Positions 42,100 through 46,558 of a stretch of 64,000 nt of DNA are shown piece by piece (within the stretch, counting starts at the first letter, position 1; each line of letters begins with the position of its first letter). The stretch is from contig NZ_ATUK01000014.1 of assembly GCF_000420165.1 (NCBI RefSeq), positions 82,001-146,000 of the forward strand, given 5' to 3'. Source of the stretch: Thioalkalivibrio sp. AKL19. GTDB taxonomy: Bacteria > Pseudomonadota > Gammaproteobacteria > Ectothiorhodospirales > Ectothiorhodospiraceae. The translations under genes were made by a program, and so were the position numbers. The notes below the pieces were generated by a model. The model was not told the origin of the DNA, made no database searches, and saw only the letters and a program-made list of their open reading frames with translations.

Positions 42100-42882
42100 A
42101 TGCAGCGCATCCTCCAGATCAGCGACACCCATCTGGGCCGGGAGCCCGGACCGATCCGCCCCGGCTACCCCGACAGCGACCACCAGCTCGCGCGGGTCCT
42201 CGAGGCGCTCGTCCGGAACGAGCCGCGCCCGGACCTGCTCTGGCTGACCGGCGACTTGGCGGAAGACCCCGCGCCGGAGGCCTATACGCGCCTGCTGGAC
42301 CTGCTGGACCGGCATGTGCCTGGCTGGCCGCTCGCCGGCCTGGCGGGCAATCACGACGAGTGGTGCGACTTGGACCGGGCCTTCACGTCGGCCGGACACG
42401 CACTGGACGGACACCGCGTACGGGGCGAGTGGCTCCTGGTCGGAGTCAACTCGGCAGTCCCGGGACAGGCGGCCGGGCGCATCGAGCCCGCCGAACTGGA
42501 ACGGCTGGAGCAGGTGCTGACCCGTCATCCGGCGCACTGGGTGATGATCGCCATCCACCACCCGGTCGTGCCGATCGGAAGCGGCTGGATGGACCGCATC
42601 GGCCTGACCAACCCGGACGACCTGTTCGCGGTGCTGGACCGCCATCCGCGCGTACGTGCCTGCCTGTTTGGCCATATCCACCAGGACTTTCGCAGCGAGC
42701 GTCGGAGCGTCGAGCTGCTGGGCTGTCCCTCTACCTGCATCCAGTTCGCCCCCGGTTCCGAACGGTTTGCGCTGGACACCGAGCACGCCGGCTATCGCGT
42801 GCTGGAACTGCACCCGGACGGCCGGATCGACACCCGCGTCGAACGGGTTCCTGGCGCCGGCCCCGAGGAGGCCCAAGCATGA
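42100..42882 (+). CDS. cpdA: 3',5'-cyclic-AMP phosphodiesterase
   Basis: A 260-residue calcineurin-like metallophosphoesterase. The binuclear metal site is visible as D-T-H (residues 9-11), G-D-L-A-E-D, G-N-H-D-E, I-H-H-P and G-H-I-H-Q-D. This pattern and length fit CpdA, which hydrolyses cAMP; other family phosphodiesterases cannot be excluded. The Crp-like regulator is encoded 13 kb downstream, so the cell probably uses cAMP signalling. Its stop overlaps the amgK start by 4 bp. Confidence 0.82.
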   Translation: MQRILQISDTHLGREPGPIRPGYPDSDHQLARVLEALVRNEPRPDLLWLTGDLAEDPAPEAYTRLLDLLDRHVPGWPLAGLAGNHDEWCDLDRAFTSAGHALDGHRVRGEWLLVGVNSAVPGQAAGRIEPAELERLEQVLTRHPAHWVMIAIHHPVVPIGSGWMDRIGLTNPDDLFAVLDRHPRVRACLFGHIHQDFRSERRSVELLGCPSTCIQFAPGSERFALDTEHAGYRVLELHPDGRIDTRVERVPGAGPEEAQA

Positions 42883-43874
42883 TCCCGGACGACACCCGCA
42901 GCAAGCAGCTCGCGGCCTGGCTGGAGCAGCAGCCGGGCACCTTCACCGACCTGGCCCTGCTGCGGGCGGATGCCAGTTTCCGGCGCTATTTCCGCCTGCG
43001 CCGCGATGGCGAATCGGTGGTACTGATGGACGCCCCGCCGGAGCGCGAGGCCACCGGACCGTTCGTGCAGGTGGCGCGGCTGCTGGAGTCGCTGGGGCTG
43101 CGGCCACCCCGCGTGCTGGTGCACGACCCGACGGCCGGGTTCGTCCTGCTCGAGGATCTGGGCGACCGGACCTTTACCCGGGCCCTTGCCGAAGGGGCCG
43201 GAGAAGGCGCGCTGTACGACCGCGCGATCGACACCCTGGTCCAGCTCCACCGTGCCTGGCCGGACCAGGCCGCGAAGGCGCCGGCCCTGCCCACCTATGA
43301 CACCCCGCGCCTGCTCGACGAGGCCGCCCTGTTCGCCGACTGGTACTGGCCGGAACATCGGGGTACCGCGATGGAGCCGACGCGGCGCGAGGCGTTCATG
43401 GAAGCGTGGCGCGAGACCCTTGAAGGGCTCCCCGCCCTGGACAACACACTGGTGCTGCGCGACTTCCACGTCGACAACCTGATGCTGCCACCCGGCGAGG
43501 ACCGCGGCTGTGCCGTGCTGGATTTTCAGGACGCGGTGATCGGAAGCCCGGCCTACGATGTCGTCTCCCTGCTGGAGGATGCCCGCCGCGACGTGTCGCC
43601 GGCCACGGTGGAACGCGGCCTGGACCGCTACTTCGCGGGAACCCCCCGCGACCGCGAGGCCTTCATGCGCCATTACCGGGTCCTCGGTGCCCAGCGCACC
43701 ACCAAGATCCTCGGCATCTTCGTGCGCCTGGCCCGGCGCGACGCCAAGCCCCGTTACCTGGAGCACCTGCCCCGCCTGCACCGCCTGCTGGCGCAGGGGC
43801 TGCCCCATGCGGGCCTGGAACCGGTCGCCGCCTGGTTTGAAAATCACATGCCCGAACGGCTGCAGGAGGACTAG
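42879..43874 (+). CDS. amgK: N-acetylmuramate/N-acetylglucosamine kinase
   Basis: A 331-residue kinase of the aminoglycoside-phosphotransferase fold. Features: A-D-A-S-F-R-R-Y-F-R, L-L-E-D-L-G-D-R-T-F, the catalytic loop L-R-D-F-H-V-D-N-L and the metal motif L-D-F-Q-D-A. With MurU it forms the cell-wall recycling route that converts MurNAc to UDP-MurNAc, bypassing early fosfomycin-sensitive synthesis; this is known from Pseudomonas. The murU gene follows 3 bp later. The gene call as AmgK rests on this pairing, since the fold alone is broad. Confidence 0.9.
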   Translation: MIPDDTRSKQLAAWLEQQPGTFTDLALLRADASFRRYFRLRRDGESVVLMDAPPEREATGPFVQVARLLESLGLRPPRVLVHDPTAGFVLLEDLGDRTFTRALAEGAGEGALYDRAIDTLVQLHRAWPDQAAKAPALPTYDTPRLLDEAALFADWYWPEHRGTAMEPTRREAFMEAWRETLEGLPALDNTLVLRDFHVDNLMLPPGEDRGCAVLDFQDAVIGSPAYDVVSLLEDARRDVSPATVERGLDRYFAGTPRDREAFMRHYRVLGAQRTTKILGIFVRLARRDAKPRYLEHLPRLHRLLAQGLPHAGLEPVAAWFENHMPERLQED

Positions 43875-44552
<678 letters not shown>

Positions 44553-44590: not shown

Positions 44591-45079
44591 TCAGGGCTTG
44601 ATGTAGGTATACCCGGCGCGTTGCAGACGGGTCAGCTCGACGAGACCACTGGAAACGACGTCCTTCTCCGCGACCTCGTGCAGATCCGCACGCTCGAGCC
44701 CGCGCGACTCCATCGTGTTGCCGCACACCAGGAACCGCACATCCTGCAGTTTCAGGGTATTCACGGTGCTGCGCAGGTCCGGGTCCGTGCGGGCGTGCTG
44801 CAGCAGGCTGATGCCACTGCCGTGGGTGAGCACCTTGATCTCCAGCGCGGCATCCGCCGGGGTCCCGTCGATGTGATTCTGCAGGTTGCGCAGGGCGTTC
44901 AGGTGCAACTCCGGGTCATCGGTATTGATGTGATAGACCACCCGCAGCGGCTCGTCGGCCGCCGGGGCCTCGGCGATGGTGCCGAACAACAGCGCCGTCG
45001 CACCGCCCGCCACCAGCATCAACAAGAACGCCCCGGCCAGGAACCAGCCGGGGCGCAACACTCGTTTATCGCGGTTCAT
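44591..45079 (-). CDS. membrane-anchored DsrE-like protein
   Basis: A 162-residue protein with an N-terminal membrane segment (about residues 11-33) and a DsrE/DsrF-like domain from about 45. This domain has R-V-V-Y-H-I-N-T-D-D, V-L-T-H-G-S-G-I and F-L-V-C-G-N-T-M, with a single Cys 119 in the position of the family's candidate persulfide-carrying residue. It ends R-A-G-Y-T-Y-I-K-P. Orientation suggests the domain is periplasmic. It is 21 bp downstream of the anti-sigma gene, whose C-terminal half is homologous, so the two may share a sulfur ligand or interact. Confidence 0.8.
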   Translation of the reverse strand: MNRDKRVLRPGWFLAGAFLLMLVAGGATALLFGTIAEAPAADEPLRVVYHINTDDPELHLNALRNLQNHIDGTPADAALEIKVLTHGSGISLLQHARTDPDLRSTVNTLKLQDVRFLVCGNTMESRGLERADLHEVAEKDVVSSGLVELTRLQRAGYTYIKP

Positions 45080-45100
45080 CGGGACTCCGGCCGCACCGGA

Positions 45101-45919
45101 TCAGACCTTGATGTAGATCCAACCTTCGGCCTGACGGCGGGCCGCCTCGGCCACGCCGGAGTCGATCAGCTCGGCCTGCGGCAGGATATCCACGGTCCGT
45201 CCCTCCTCGCGTGCCAGCCGGTTCAGGGTCTGGGCGCAGGCGGTAAAACGCAGCGTCGGATAGTCCTGCGCCATGCTGGCGACACGCTCCGGATACGGGG
45301 CACTGTCCGCCCGTAGCAGGTCCATCGCGTTGTTGTGCACCACCACCTGCACGTTCAGGTCGCGTCCCACCGAGGCCGCCTCGCGGTACATGCTCTCGAT
45401 GTCGTCCAGCAGCTCGGCCATGGCGCGGGTATCGCCCTCGTTGATATGCAGCAGGATCTGGTCGGTCTCGGTCGCCGAAAACACTTGCTGCGGGGCCGCC
45501 GCGCCACCAGGAGTCTCGTCACTGGCCGCCACTTGCGCCAGGGCTTCGGCGTCCTGCCCGGTTGCGGCCGACGGGTTGCCCCCGAAGAACCCGGCATCAC
45601 GGGTAATCTCGTACCCGCCCAGCGAACCCACGACCAGCGCGAGCACCCCGGCCGCCACCGACGGGAACCAGGCCGAACGGCCGCCGCGCGACAGGCGACA
45701 ACGCCCACCGGAGGCGCGCTTGGCCGGCACGTCCTCGTAGGCCATGTTGACCAGTTCCTTGAGCTGGTGCATGTCGCAGACTTCGCGGCTCAGGTGCTCA
45801 CTGGAGGCGATCGTCTTGAGCGTGTACAGACGGTCCTCCGGCGAAAATTCACCATCCACGAAGGCGTTGAGAATCTCCTCGCTGGGCCGGTTCTTCGCAC
45901 TCAGTCGTTCATTCGACAT
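45101..45919 (-). CDS. anti-sigma factor fused to a periplasmic DsrE-like domain
   Basis: A 272-residue protein. Residues 10-60 look like an anti-sigma domain (I-L-N-A-F-V-D-G-E-F-S-P-E-D) with H-x5-C-x2-H (42, 48, 51), a variant of the zinc anti-sigma motif. A membrane segment spans about 84-103. After a linker, residues 150-272 form a DsrE-like domain: I-L-L-H-I-N-E-G-D, V-V-V-H-N-N-A-M-D and F-T-A-C-A-Q-T-L with Cys 228, ending G-W-I-Y-I-K-V. It overlaps the sigma gene by 11 bp, so it most likely holds that sigma factor at the membrane and senses a periplasmic signal. The fold assignments are by reading only. Confidence 0.8.
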   Translation of the reverse strand: MSNERLSAKNRPSEEILNAFVDGEFSPEDRLYTLKTIASSEHLSREVCDMHQLKELVNMAYEDVPAKRASGGRCRLSRGGRSAWFPSVAAGVLALVVGSLGGYEITRDAGFFGGNPSAATGQDAEALAQVAASDETPGGAAAPQQVFSATETDQILLHINEGDTRAMAELLDDIESMYREAASVGRDLNVQVVVHNNAMDLLRADSAPYPERVASMAQDYPTLRFTACAQTLNRLAREEGRTVDILPQAELIDSGVAEAARRQAEGWIYIKV

Positions 45920-46472
45920 GCCGATTCCTCACTACCTTGAGATAGGGTGTATCGGCCGCATTCCCCGTGTCGGCCTGCTGCTCCAGCAGCACCTTCTTCA
46001 GCTGCGCCCGAGCCCGGCTCAGGCGACTCATCACGGTGCCGATCGGTACGTCCAGCACCTCCGAGACCTCGGAGTAGGCAAAGCCCTCCAGGTCCACCAG
46101 CGCGACCACCTGGCGGTGATCGGTACTCAGCTCGGCCATCGCCCGGTGGACATCCGCGACCATGCGATTGCGCTCGGTCTGCTGTTCCGGGCAGTCCTCG
46201 CAGGGCAGCTCCATGCTGTCCACGTCCACCGTATCCTTCTGCCGCCGCCCCCAGTCGCGGTAGCAGTTGGTCATGATGCGGAACACCCAGGCCTTCAGGG
46301 CGTCCTCGTCCTGCAGCGACTTCAGCCGCGTCAGGGCCTTCATCATCGCCTCCTGCACCAGGTCGTCCGCCAGCGCGGCATCGTGACACCACGCGAATGC
46401 CATGCGGTACATCTGGGGCCGCAGGTCGCACACCTTCTGGCGCAGCCTGCGCTGCGCGAACCAGGTTGCCAT
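45909..46472 (-). CDS. ECF-type RNA polymerase sigma factor
   Basis: A 187-residue sigma-70 family protein of the extracytoplasmic-function type. Region 2 is at about residues 15-85 (A-D-D-L-V-Q-E-A-M-M-K-A-L, A-W-V-F-R-I-M-T-N). Region 4 is at about 120-170 (D-H-R-Q-V-V-A-L-V-D-L-E-G, G-T-V-M-S-R-L-S-R-A-R). The linker has C-E-D-C, of unknown meaning. GGAGGAAA before ATG 46472 fixes the start. The downstream gene is its likely anti-sigma factor. A GGAAT-N17-CGTC pair upstream could be its own promoter. Confidence 0.93.
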   Translation of the reverse strand: MATWFAQRRLRQKVCDLRPQMYRMAFAWCHDAALADDLVQEAMMKALTRLKSLQDEDALKAWVFRIMTNCYRDWGRRQKDTVDVDSMELPCEDCPEQQTERNRMVADVHRAMAELSTDHRQVVALVDLEGFAYSEVSEVLDVPIGTVMSRLSRARAQLKKVLLEQQADTGNAADTPYLKVVRNRHVE

Positions 46473-46532: not shown

Positions 46533-46558
46533 GACGCTACCGGGCGCGAGGCTATTCC
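46533..46558 (-). promoter_or_regulatory. candidate ECF-type promoter of the sigma operon
   Basis: On the minus strand GGAAT (46558-46554) and CGTC (46536-46533) are separated by 17 bp, the spacing and base choice of many ECF sigma promoters. The sigma start codon lies about 60 bp downstream. If real, the operon is autoregulated. One example in a GC-rich genome is weak evidence. Confidence 0.4.

Follow-up and report, generated by a model that had tools for sequence, protein, structure and literature searches.

Which signal is read, and which genes are switched on, by a sigma factor whose membrane-bound partner appears to carry a sulfur-carrier fold outside the membrane? The question is raised by three genes of the soda-lake bacterium Thioalkalivibrio sp. 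AKL19 at positions 44591-46472 of a stretch of 64,000 nucleotides (contig NZ_ATUK01000014.1, positions 82,001 to 146,000; hereafter the window), which encode an extracytoplasmic function (ECF) sigma factor, an anti-sigma factor with a DsrE domain and a further DsrE-family protein, referred to here as the partner. The sensing of external thiosulfate or sulfur by sulfur oxidisers is described as poorly understood or little known (PMC11582611, PMC10451225; literature statements given here refer to excerpts of the cited papers), and the regulators described so far include ArsR-type repressors in an alphaproteobacterium (PMC11582611) and two-component systems in Acidithiobacillia (PMC5093147). The locus very probably regulates the Sox genes of thiosulfate oxidation, and control of thiosulfate oxidation is its best-supported function because gene order, co-occurrence and the promoter with its predicted regulon all point to it. 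It is furthermore likely that the locus acts as a sulfur-responsive switch that activates the Sox regulon, with the loading of one cysteine of the anti-sigma factor, Cys228, releasing the sigma factor. The architecture, the fold, the conservation of this cysteine, the promoter motif, the regulon content and the co-occurrence were all computed. A first-pass annotation of the DNA had named no described system with such a layout. A full-text search of a collection with few subscription papers, outside supplements and the principal article on ECF reclassification, likewise found no DsrE-domain anti-sigma factor and no mention of this sox regulator in titles, opening lines of abstracts and excerpts.

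Association of the module with sox genes

When 369 sampled genomes of Gammaproteobacteria were searched with a profile, 95 gave matches, and the full-length anti-sigma/DsrE architecture, defined by a match spanning position 45 or lower to position 246 or higher, was present in at least 63 of the 369, from 39 families, as counted among the matches listed and leaving out G090, where the match is split over two contigs. SoxB (called with TIGR04486 at an E-value of 1e-100 or below) was detected in 62 of these 63 genomes, including one (G099) with a SoxB fragment under the curated cut-off, against 88 of the 306 others (Fisher p 2e-27, uncorrected for genome kinship). The corresponding counts for the control gene nifH were 9 of 63 and 27 of 306 (p 0.24). 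With regard to gene order, the sigma gene, the anti-sigma gene, soxX, soxY, soxZ, soxA and soxB form a one-strand run of seven in one genome (G267, locus L089), with a divergent dsrE gene and with all five Sox proteins exceeding the NCBIfam cut-offs. The same five sox genes stand in one run with the sigma and anti-sigma genes in a second genome of that genus (G156, L085), as seen with tblastn.

Of 71 modules, 58 have the motif GGAATA-N16-CGTC upstream of sigma (the 71 regions include that of L026, where the sigma gene is complete), among them 32 of the 45 outside Thioalkalivibrio. When spacings from N10 to N23 were scanned at this position, N16 occurred in 58 regions, N15 in seven and no other spacing in any, and a base-shuffled control gave 0.00014 motifs per region. 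A second copy on the other strand, facing away from the sigma gene, is present in 12 of the 71 regions, or in 18 with a looser pattern. The window contains a single match (46533-46558), where 0.03 are expected, and the whole genome contains four exact N16 motifs versus one for a reversed control pattern; these four precede the sigma gene, soxA (L100), soxYZ (L101) and the gene of a Rhodanese-domain protein (L102). The open reading frame after soxA in L100 is SoxX-like by eye and was left unnamed because it has no family match. Admitting N15 to N17 raises the count to 13 matches against two for the control, and two of the added matches precede tandem dsrE genes. A further N15 copy (L109, G000:C12:309189-309213), about 200 base pairs (bp) upstream of a gene that is histidine-kinase-like by eye, was left undecided, and the matches at L104, L107, L108 and L110-L112, which lie inside coding sequence, were treated as chance rather than as promoters.

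In 19 genomes rich in guanine and cytosine (GC), hand-picked from the 63 positives, the motif was counted 122 times versus 15 for the reversed pattern, compared with 70 versus 42 in 20 hand-picked genomes that are SoxB-positive, lack a full-length anti-sigma factor and are unmatched for GC. In six of the 19 system genomes the SoxB match has an exact motif upstream at a distance of 60-157 bp, and in ten it has one at most 4 kilobases (kb) upstream on the same strand, whereas among the 20 comparison genomes, where distances were judged by eye, a motif was within 300 bp of soxB in none and within 4 kb in two. The genes found downstream of the motif in relatives include soxB, soxX, those of YeeE-type transporters (Sulf_transp), TusA and DsrE, and DsbD-type and thioredoxin-type genes. 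Many of these regions were chosen for their nearness to sox, and a less biased count is given only by 30 automatically fetched loci (L113-L142), of which 17 comprise eight self promoters and nine sulfur or thiol genes (the families at L122 and L138 being assigned via near-identical copies) and 13 have no evident sulfur link. The connection to inorganic sulfur that had been proposed from the window alone is therefore borne out by the sox regulon and by the co-occurrence with SoxB.

Architecture, fold and spread of the module

The features of the locus, in window coordinates, are the following (pLDDT, predicted local distance difference test).

46533..46558, minus strand: predicted ECF promoter (GGAATA-N16-CGTC) for autoregulation of the sigma gene, 60 bp before its start codon
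45909..46472, minus strand: ECF sigma factor of 187 amino acids with regions 2 and 4 (Pfam Sigma70_r4_2 2.1e-14, Sigma70_r2 4.6e-13)
45101..45919, minus strand: membrane anti-sigma factor of 272 amino acids with a C-terminal DsrE domain (PDB sequence and Foldseek matches)
45737..45886, minus strand: cytoplasmic anti-sigma domain, about residues 12-61 (conserved block; four short helices in a low-confidence model)
45617..45673, minus strand: predicted transmembrane segment, about residues 83-101 (hydropathy maximum 1.73)
45104..45469, minus strand: DsrE-fold domain, residues 151-272, predicted periplasmic (pLDDT about 85-96; Foldseek matches 1l1s, 2pd2 and 2hy5_A; profile match to 1l1s)
45236..45238, minus strand: codon of Cys228 of the anti-sigma factor (invariant in 70 of 70; aligned with a cysteine of MTH1491)
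44591..45079, minus strand: DsrE-family partner of 162 amino acids, secreted or anchored (Pfam DsrE 5.8e-12; Foldseek 1l1s 2.6e-9)
44723..44725, minus strand: codon of Cys119 of the partner (cysteine in 53 of 56 partner-type proteins)

The gene layout reported in the first-pass annotation was recovered, with an overlap of 11 bp between the sigma and anti-sigma genes (45909-45919) and a gap of 21 bp before the third gene, all on the minus strand. The same applies to the two patterns shared by the anti-sigma factor and the third protein, namely F-x-x-C-x-x-T (FTACAQT with Cys228 and FLVCGNT with Cys119, respectively) and a closing G-x-x-Y-I-K (GWIYIK and GYTYIK). The sigma protein exceeded the cut-off of NCBIfam TIGR02937. 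The protein encoded next to it consists of an N-terminal cytoplasmic domain, whose conserved block reads PSEEILNAFVDGEF...SREVCD..QLKELV among the homologues, one transmembrane segment and an extracytoplasmic domain. The hydropathy maximum is at least 1.6 in 64 of 70 homologues, with a lowest value of 1.34. No Pfam anti-sigma family matched the window protein at an E-value of 1 or better, and its binding and inhibition of the sigma factor are predicted. Gene adjacency in all 70 loci, hydropathy and the structural model thus agree with the original proposal of an ECF sigma factor paired with a membrane anti-sigma factor whose DsrE domain lies outside the membrane.

The DsrE-type fold suspected in the C-terminal half of the anti-sigma factor and in the third protein was found in both by sequence and structure searches. 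The match to Pfam PF02635 clears the cut-off for the third protein (E 5.8e-12) but not for the anti-sigma half (E 0.15), so that a reading based on Pfam only failed and the PDB sequence and fold searches decided. Residues 154-271 match the solved DsrE-type protein MTH1491 (1l1s) at 4e-9 by sequence and 1.3e-13 by profile, and the profile alignment places Cys228 on a cysteine of MTH1491. Foldseek retrieved MTH1491 (3.2e-9), ST0148 (2pd2_A, 1.1e-7) and DsrE of Allochromatium vinosum (2hy5_A, 5.4e-4) with the anti-sigma model, and 1l1s (2.6e-9), again 2pd2_A, and 2hy5_A (4.6e-3) with the model of the third protein, which has a mean pLDDT of 83.9. The AlphaFold model of the anti-sigma factor has a mean pLDDT of 64.7, with about 85-96 over residues 151-272 and low values in the anti-sigma domain and the linker. 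The domain combines a DsrE/DsrF-like fold with a conserved cysteine at the active-site position, as judged by the alignment with MTH1491.

Conservation was assessed in 70 aligned full-length anti-sigma factors, of which 25 come from Thioalkalivibrio-type loci including the window, many of these closely similar to one another, and 45 from further gammaproteobacterial genomes; the partial proteins of L025, L026 and L098 were excluded from the counts. Cys228 is kept in all 70, in line with its earlier designation as the key residue, as are Gly266 and Trp267, and His158 and Tyr269 are each kept in 69. The sigma gene lies directly upstream of the anti-sigma gene in all 70 loci, which together with the invariance of Cys228 rejects a chance arrangement. 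With regard to the order sigma, anti-sigma, DsrE, the sigma/anti-sigma part stood in all 70 loci and an adjacent DsrE gene, downstream or divergent, in 50. A protein search of GTDB species contigs returned 26 loci, all from Thioalkalivibrio. Of 299 genomes drawn from the phylum, 13 gave a match, and the full-length fusion was seen in three of the 299, all Gammaproteobacteria. The stretches fetched from the other ten hold DsrE proteins without an anti-sigma part, and the same fusion was ruled out for the alphaproteobacterial matches, since the fetched stretches contain DsrE proteins with neither an anti-sigma domain nor a sigma gene match. The module is a widespread regulator type in Gammaproteobacteria and is new as a sigma/anti-sigma variant.

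Several observations accompany this distribution. Loci L183-L196, from the same phylum and outside the class, encode DsrE proteins with signal-peptide-like starts and no anti-sigma domain, many with an LHMLR.DTSPVK block and the same cysteine, and L185 and L192 hold tandem pairs of such DsrE-like proteins without the fusion. Additionally, two complete sigma/anti-sigma(DsrE) pairs stand in tandem with two dsrE genes in L065 (7562-11945) and L066 (9184-13633), a duplicated module that perhaps serves two sulfur signals.

In 50 of 70 loci the module has a dsrE gene next to it, which lies downstream in 33 cases and is divergent in 17. The cysteine is present in 53 of the 56 partner-type proteins that the loci yielded, a set that also contains unlinked proteins such as the L028 pair; with these counts an adjacent partner is no fixed feature. 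The proposed tie between the DsrE partner and the system is sustained by position and by the common promoter motif. Its anchoring is uncertain, because the N-terminus in other genera resembles an ordinary signal peptide by eye. The genome of the window also holds the tandem DsrE-family genes of L028 (699-1145 and 1450-1896; G000:C10, about 349.6-350.8 kb), with signal-peptide-like starts, and both have GGAATA-N15-CGTC about 125 bp upstream.

With regard to neighbouring genes, a porin-like gene was detected by tblastn in 18 loci (including L077 6951-8381, L090, L091, L083 and L069), often directly after a divergent dsrE gene, and outer-membrane uptake may therefore belong to the regulon. When four porin-like proteins were scanned against Pfam, those of L077 and L091 were assigned to Porin_O_P and those of L065 and L069 had no match. 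In L086 and L088, and at a contig edge in L045, the divergent gene encodes a SoxB-like protein instead of DsrE. These proteins of 710-724 amino acids (L088 4494-6626, L086 6986-9160) score 175-180 bits against TIGR04486 (E about 1e-52, cut-off 550), and represent a possible unnamed thiosulfohydrolase-like family. Promoter motifs face these genes, which are divergent from sigma and of which L045 holds only a part (3-677), and in L088 the genes of a MauG-like diheme protein and a sulfurtransferase-like protein adjoin. In the window itself, the plus-strand genes at 42792-44552, downstream of the module and convergent with it, resemble by eye only an AmgK/MurU-like pair, a sugar kinase of the phosphotransferase type and a nucleotidyltransferase.

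A proposed sulfur-loaded switch and its alternatives

The extracytoplasmic position of the DsrE fold and its invariant cysteine, in cells that have periplasmic protein-bound sulfur, suggest a detector of periplasmic sulfur intermediates, and sensing of a sulfur adduct by the anti-sigma cysteine is likely. In the scheme that follows, the loading of the cysteine, the identity of the ligand, the direction of the response (loaded meaning release) and the role of the partner are what we infer. The anti-sigma factor would hold back the sigma factor at the membrane, with its DsrE domain facing the periplasm, where Cys228 would accept a sulfur group. This would be sulfane sulfur or a thiosulfonate formed out of thiosulfate or tetrathionate, and it would arrive either directly or by way of the secreted DsrE partner. 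DsrE3A cysteines are known to receive thiosulfonate from tetrathionate (PMC4175335). Loading would alter the anti-sigma factor, either in its conformation or by turning it into the substrate of a protease; the freed sigma factor would then direct RNA polymerase to GGAATA-N16-CGTC promoters of its own operon, of secreted dsrE genes and of sox genes, to which relatives may add a YeeE-type transporter gene, tusA and periplasmic thiol-redox genes. The secreted partner, itself a predicted regulon member, could load the sensor. The first-pass annotation had proposed a sulfur or persulfide ligand shared between the two DsrE proteins; tetrathionate or a carrier-bound thiosulfonate is a candidate beside persulfide. 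A fuller version of this scheme, which we put forward only tentatively, is a conserved, undescribed gammaproteobacterial class in which a transmembrane anti-sigma factor reads the sulfur that a secreted DsrE carrier, itself from the regulon, has placed on its periplasmic DsrE cysteine, and so couples the periplasmic load of sulfur intermediates to Sox transcription; if so, extracytoplasmic DsrE proteins would be sulfur messengers, a new role for the fold.

Several results weigh against the sulfur-loaded switch. Upstream of the sigma gene, six of the 71 modules have no N15-17 motif (for one, L047, the region is 130 bp only), six of the 13 N15-17 matches in the genome of the window fall within coding sequence and one is undecided, and nine of the 19 system genomes have no exact motif near soxB. 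In two of the 20 comparison genomes an exact motif lies 2.6 kb (G064:C61:1867-1892) and 1.6 kb (G366:C324:12396-12421) upstream of soxB and a full-length anti-sigma factor was not detected, so that another sigma factor may read the motif there; these motifs may belong to a missed or a different sigma system. One of the 63 genomes with the system, G055, gave no SoxB match. The anti-sigma domain is modelled with low confidence, the DsrE domain could be structural or a sensor of thiol oxidation in general, and no experimental study of the DsrE-domain anti-sigma family was found in the literature searched.

An explanation in which the DsrE domain serves passively for structure or dimerisation, with an envelope or proteolytic signal unrelated to sulfur chemistry and a link to sox through regulon content only, has one argument in its favour: the ECF26-type anti-sigma factors at L199 (Sinorhizobium meliloti pSymA) and L200 (A. 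tumefaciens) occupy the equivalent gene position and gave no DsrE match, and the domain is thus dispensable for anti-sigma work as such. The conservation of Cys228, Gly266 and Trp267 in 70 of 70 proteins and of His158 in 69 argues for chemistry over a scaffold, and we regard this explanation as highly improbable. An RseB-type protein is a messenger that binds an anti-sigma factor, and the secreted partner could in the same way be the true sensor, binding the DsrE domain of the anti-sigma factor, in which case Cys228 would be structural. The adjacency of the partner in 50 of 70 modules (33 downstream, 17 divergent), the second, outward-facing motif that 12 of 71 regions contain (18 under the looser pattern) and the two further dsrE copies with N15 motifs in the same genome are consistent with this, but 20 of 70 modules have no adjacent partner (some lie at contig ends, and unlinked copies may exist). 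The cysteine, moreover, is lost in three of 56 partners and kept in all 70 anti-sigma factors, the reverse of what a sensing partner predicts, which makes this alternative unlikely.

A somewhat less improbable alternative, which we still consider doubtful, is that sulfur genes are indeed controlled, but in response to sulfite or to some general oxidant of thiols instead of a sulfane or thiosulfonate on the DsrE cysteine, with Cys228 as a simple redox or electrophile switch. The promoter matches the ECF26 consensus GGAAT/CGTC, known from sulfite-responsive systems of S. meliloti and Starkeya novella (PMC3511301, PMC6527743). Furthermore, arsenite, a thiol binder, raised sox expression and changed several DsrE/F-like genes in T. 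thiocyanoxidans ARh2, and in the second strain of that study the sox genes were stable or slightly down (PMC6620896). The ARh2 genome holds the module (L011), and its response fits a thiol-based sensor of sox genes, but the arsenite section of PMC6620896 identifies neither this operon nor this DsrE gene nor this sigma factor; an excerpt on the ARh2 transcriptome with thiocyanate versus thiosulfate discusses sigma-54 regulators and not the present sigma factor (PMC5744179). The sensor, in turn, has the DsrE fold, which is known for carrying sulfur, the predicted regulon contains thiosulfate-oxidation genes, and no sulfite oxidases are among the downstream genes listed, though no family-level search for them was made.

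For many sulfur oxidisers among the Gammaproteobacteria (39 families among the 369 genomes sampled), the proposed switch, read through sulfur on Cys228, supplies a candidate for the sensor together with a predicted regulon. It would enlarge the set of sensor domains in anti-sigma factors and give the sulfur-carrier fold a regulatory role in the periplasm, and the idea can be tested directly through a single cysteine and a single promoter motif.

Relation to known systems

To our knowledge, the DsrE proteins of Metallosphaera cuprina and A. vinosum are sulfur transferases without an anti-sigma domain or a membrane anchor, and the fusion of the DsrE domain to an anti-sigma factor sets the present protein apart from them. 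DsrE3A/TusA of the former and DsrEFH of the latter share with it the DsrE fold and a reactive, sulfur-carrying cysteine (PMC4175335; 2hy5_A match). The SoxR/SoxT1B system of Hyphomicrobium denitrificans resembles the predicted switch in its sulfur-dependent control of sox and in the presence of a membrane YeeE-type protein, which acts there in signalling (PMC11582611). However, its SoxR is an ArsR-type repressor and no sigma factor (PMC12423496), and YeeE-type genes look like targets in the present system. The ECF sigma/anti-sigma pairs of PMC3445524 also alter sox expression but, compared by description rather than by sequence, differ in their opposite effects on sox and their wider regulons, and no DsrE anti-sigma factor is mentioned in the excerpt concerned.

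The ECF26 systems (RpoE4/RpoE1 of S. meliloti, SigE of S. novella) resemble the module in the pairing of a sigma factor with an adjacent anti-sigma factor, in the response to sulfur compounds, here predicted, and in the -35 and -10 elements (PMC6527743). The published consensus of these sulfite-responsive sigma factors, GGAAT at -35 and CGTC at -10 (PMC6527743), is matched by the present motif in 58 of 71 modules, and the rpoE4 promoter of S. meliloti is printed as GGAATA-N16-CGTC (PMC6180224). The exact motif is absent from the L199 and L200 loci, with one chance-level, one-mismatch match in L200; L199 was assigned to RpoE6/EcfR6 because it lies on pSymA and has a divergent gene for an S8 serine peptidase (PMC6180224), and other group names were likewise given from gene context. 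In a small sigma tree with few references, named by context, the present sigma factors form their own clade (support 0.70) beside ECF26-type and ECF15-type references, and their mean identity is 33% to the L199 sigma factor, 27% to one ECF15-type and 30% to unrelated ECFs. An assignment to ECF26 was considered and membership left open, since the motif fits, whereas the tree shows no nesting, L199 and L200 lack the exact motif and the anti-sigma factor differs. The C-terminal domain of ECF26 anti-sigma factors is somewhat RsiW-like (PMC6180224) and that of the present one is DsrE; an EcfR-like C-terminal domain was not found, as only the transmembrane region aligns weakly with the L199 anti-sigma factor and the DsrE part does not. 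Moreover, ECF26 systems target sulfite-oxidising enzymes and the present system sox. The promoter language is thus common to the module and the sulfite-linked ECF26 promoters, and the sensor and the regulon differ.

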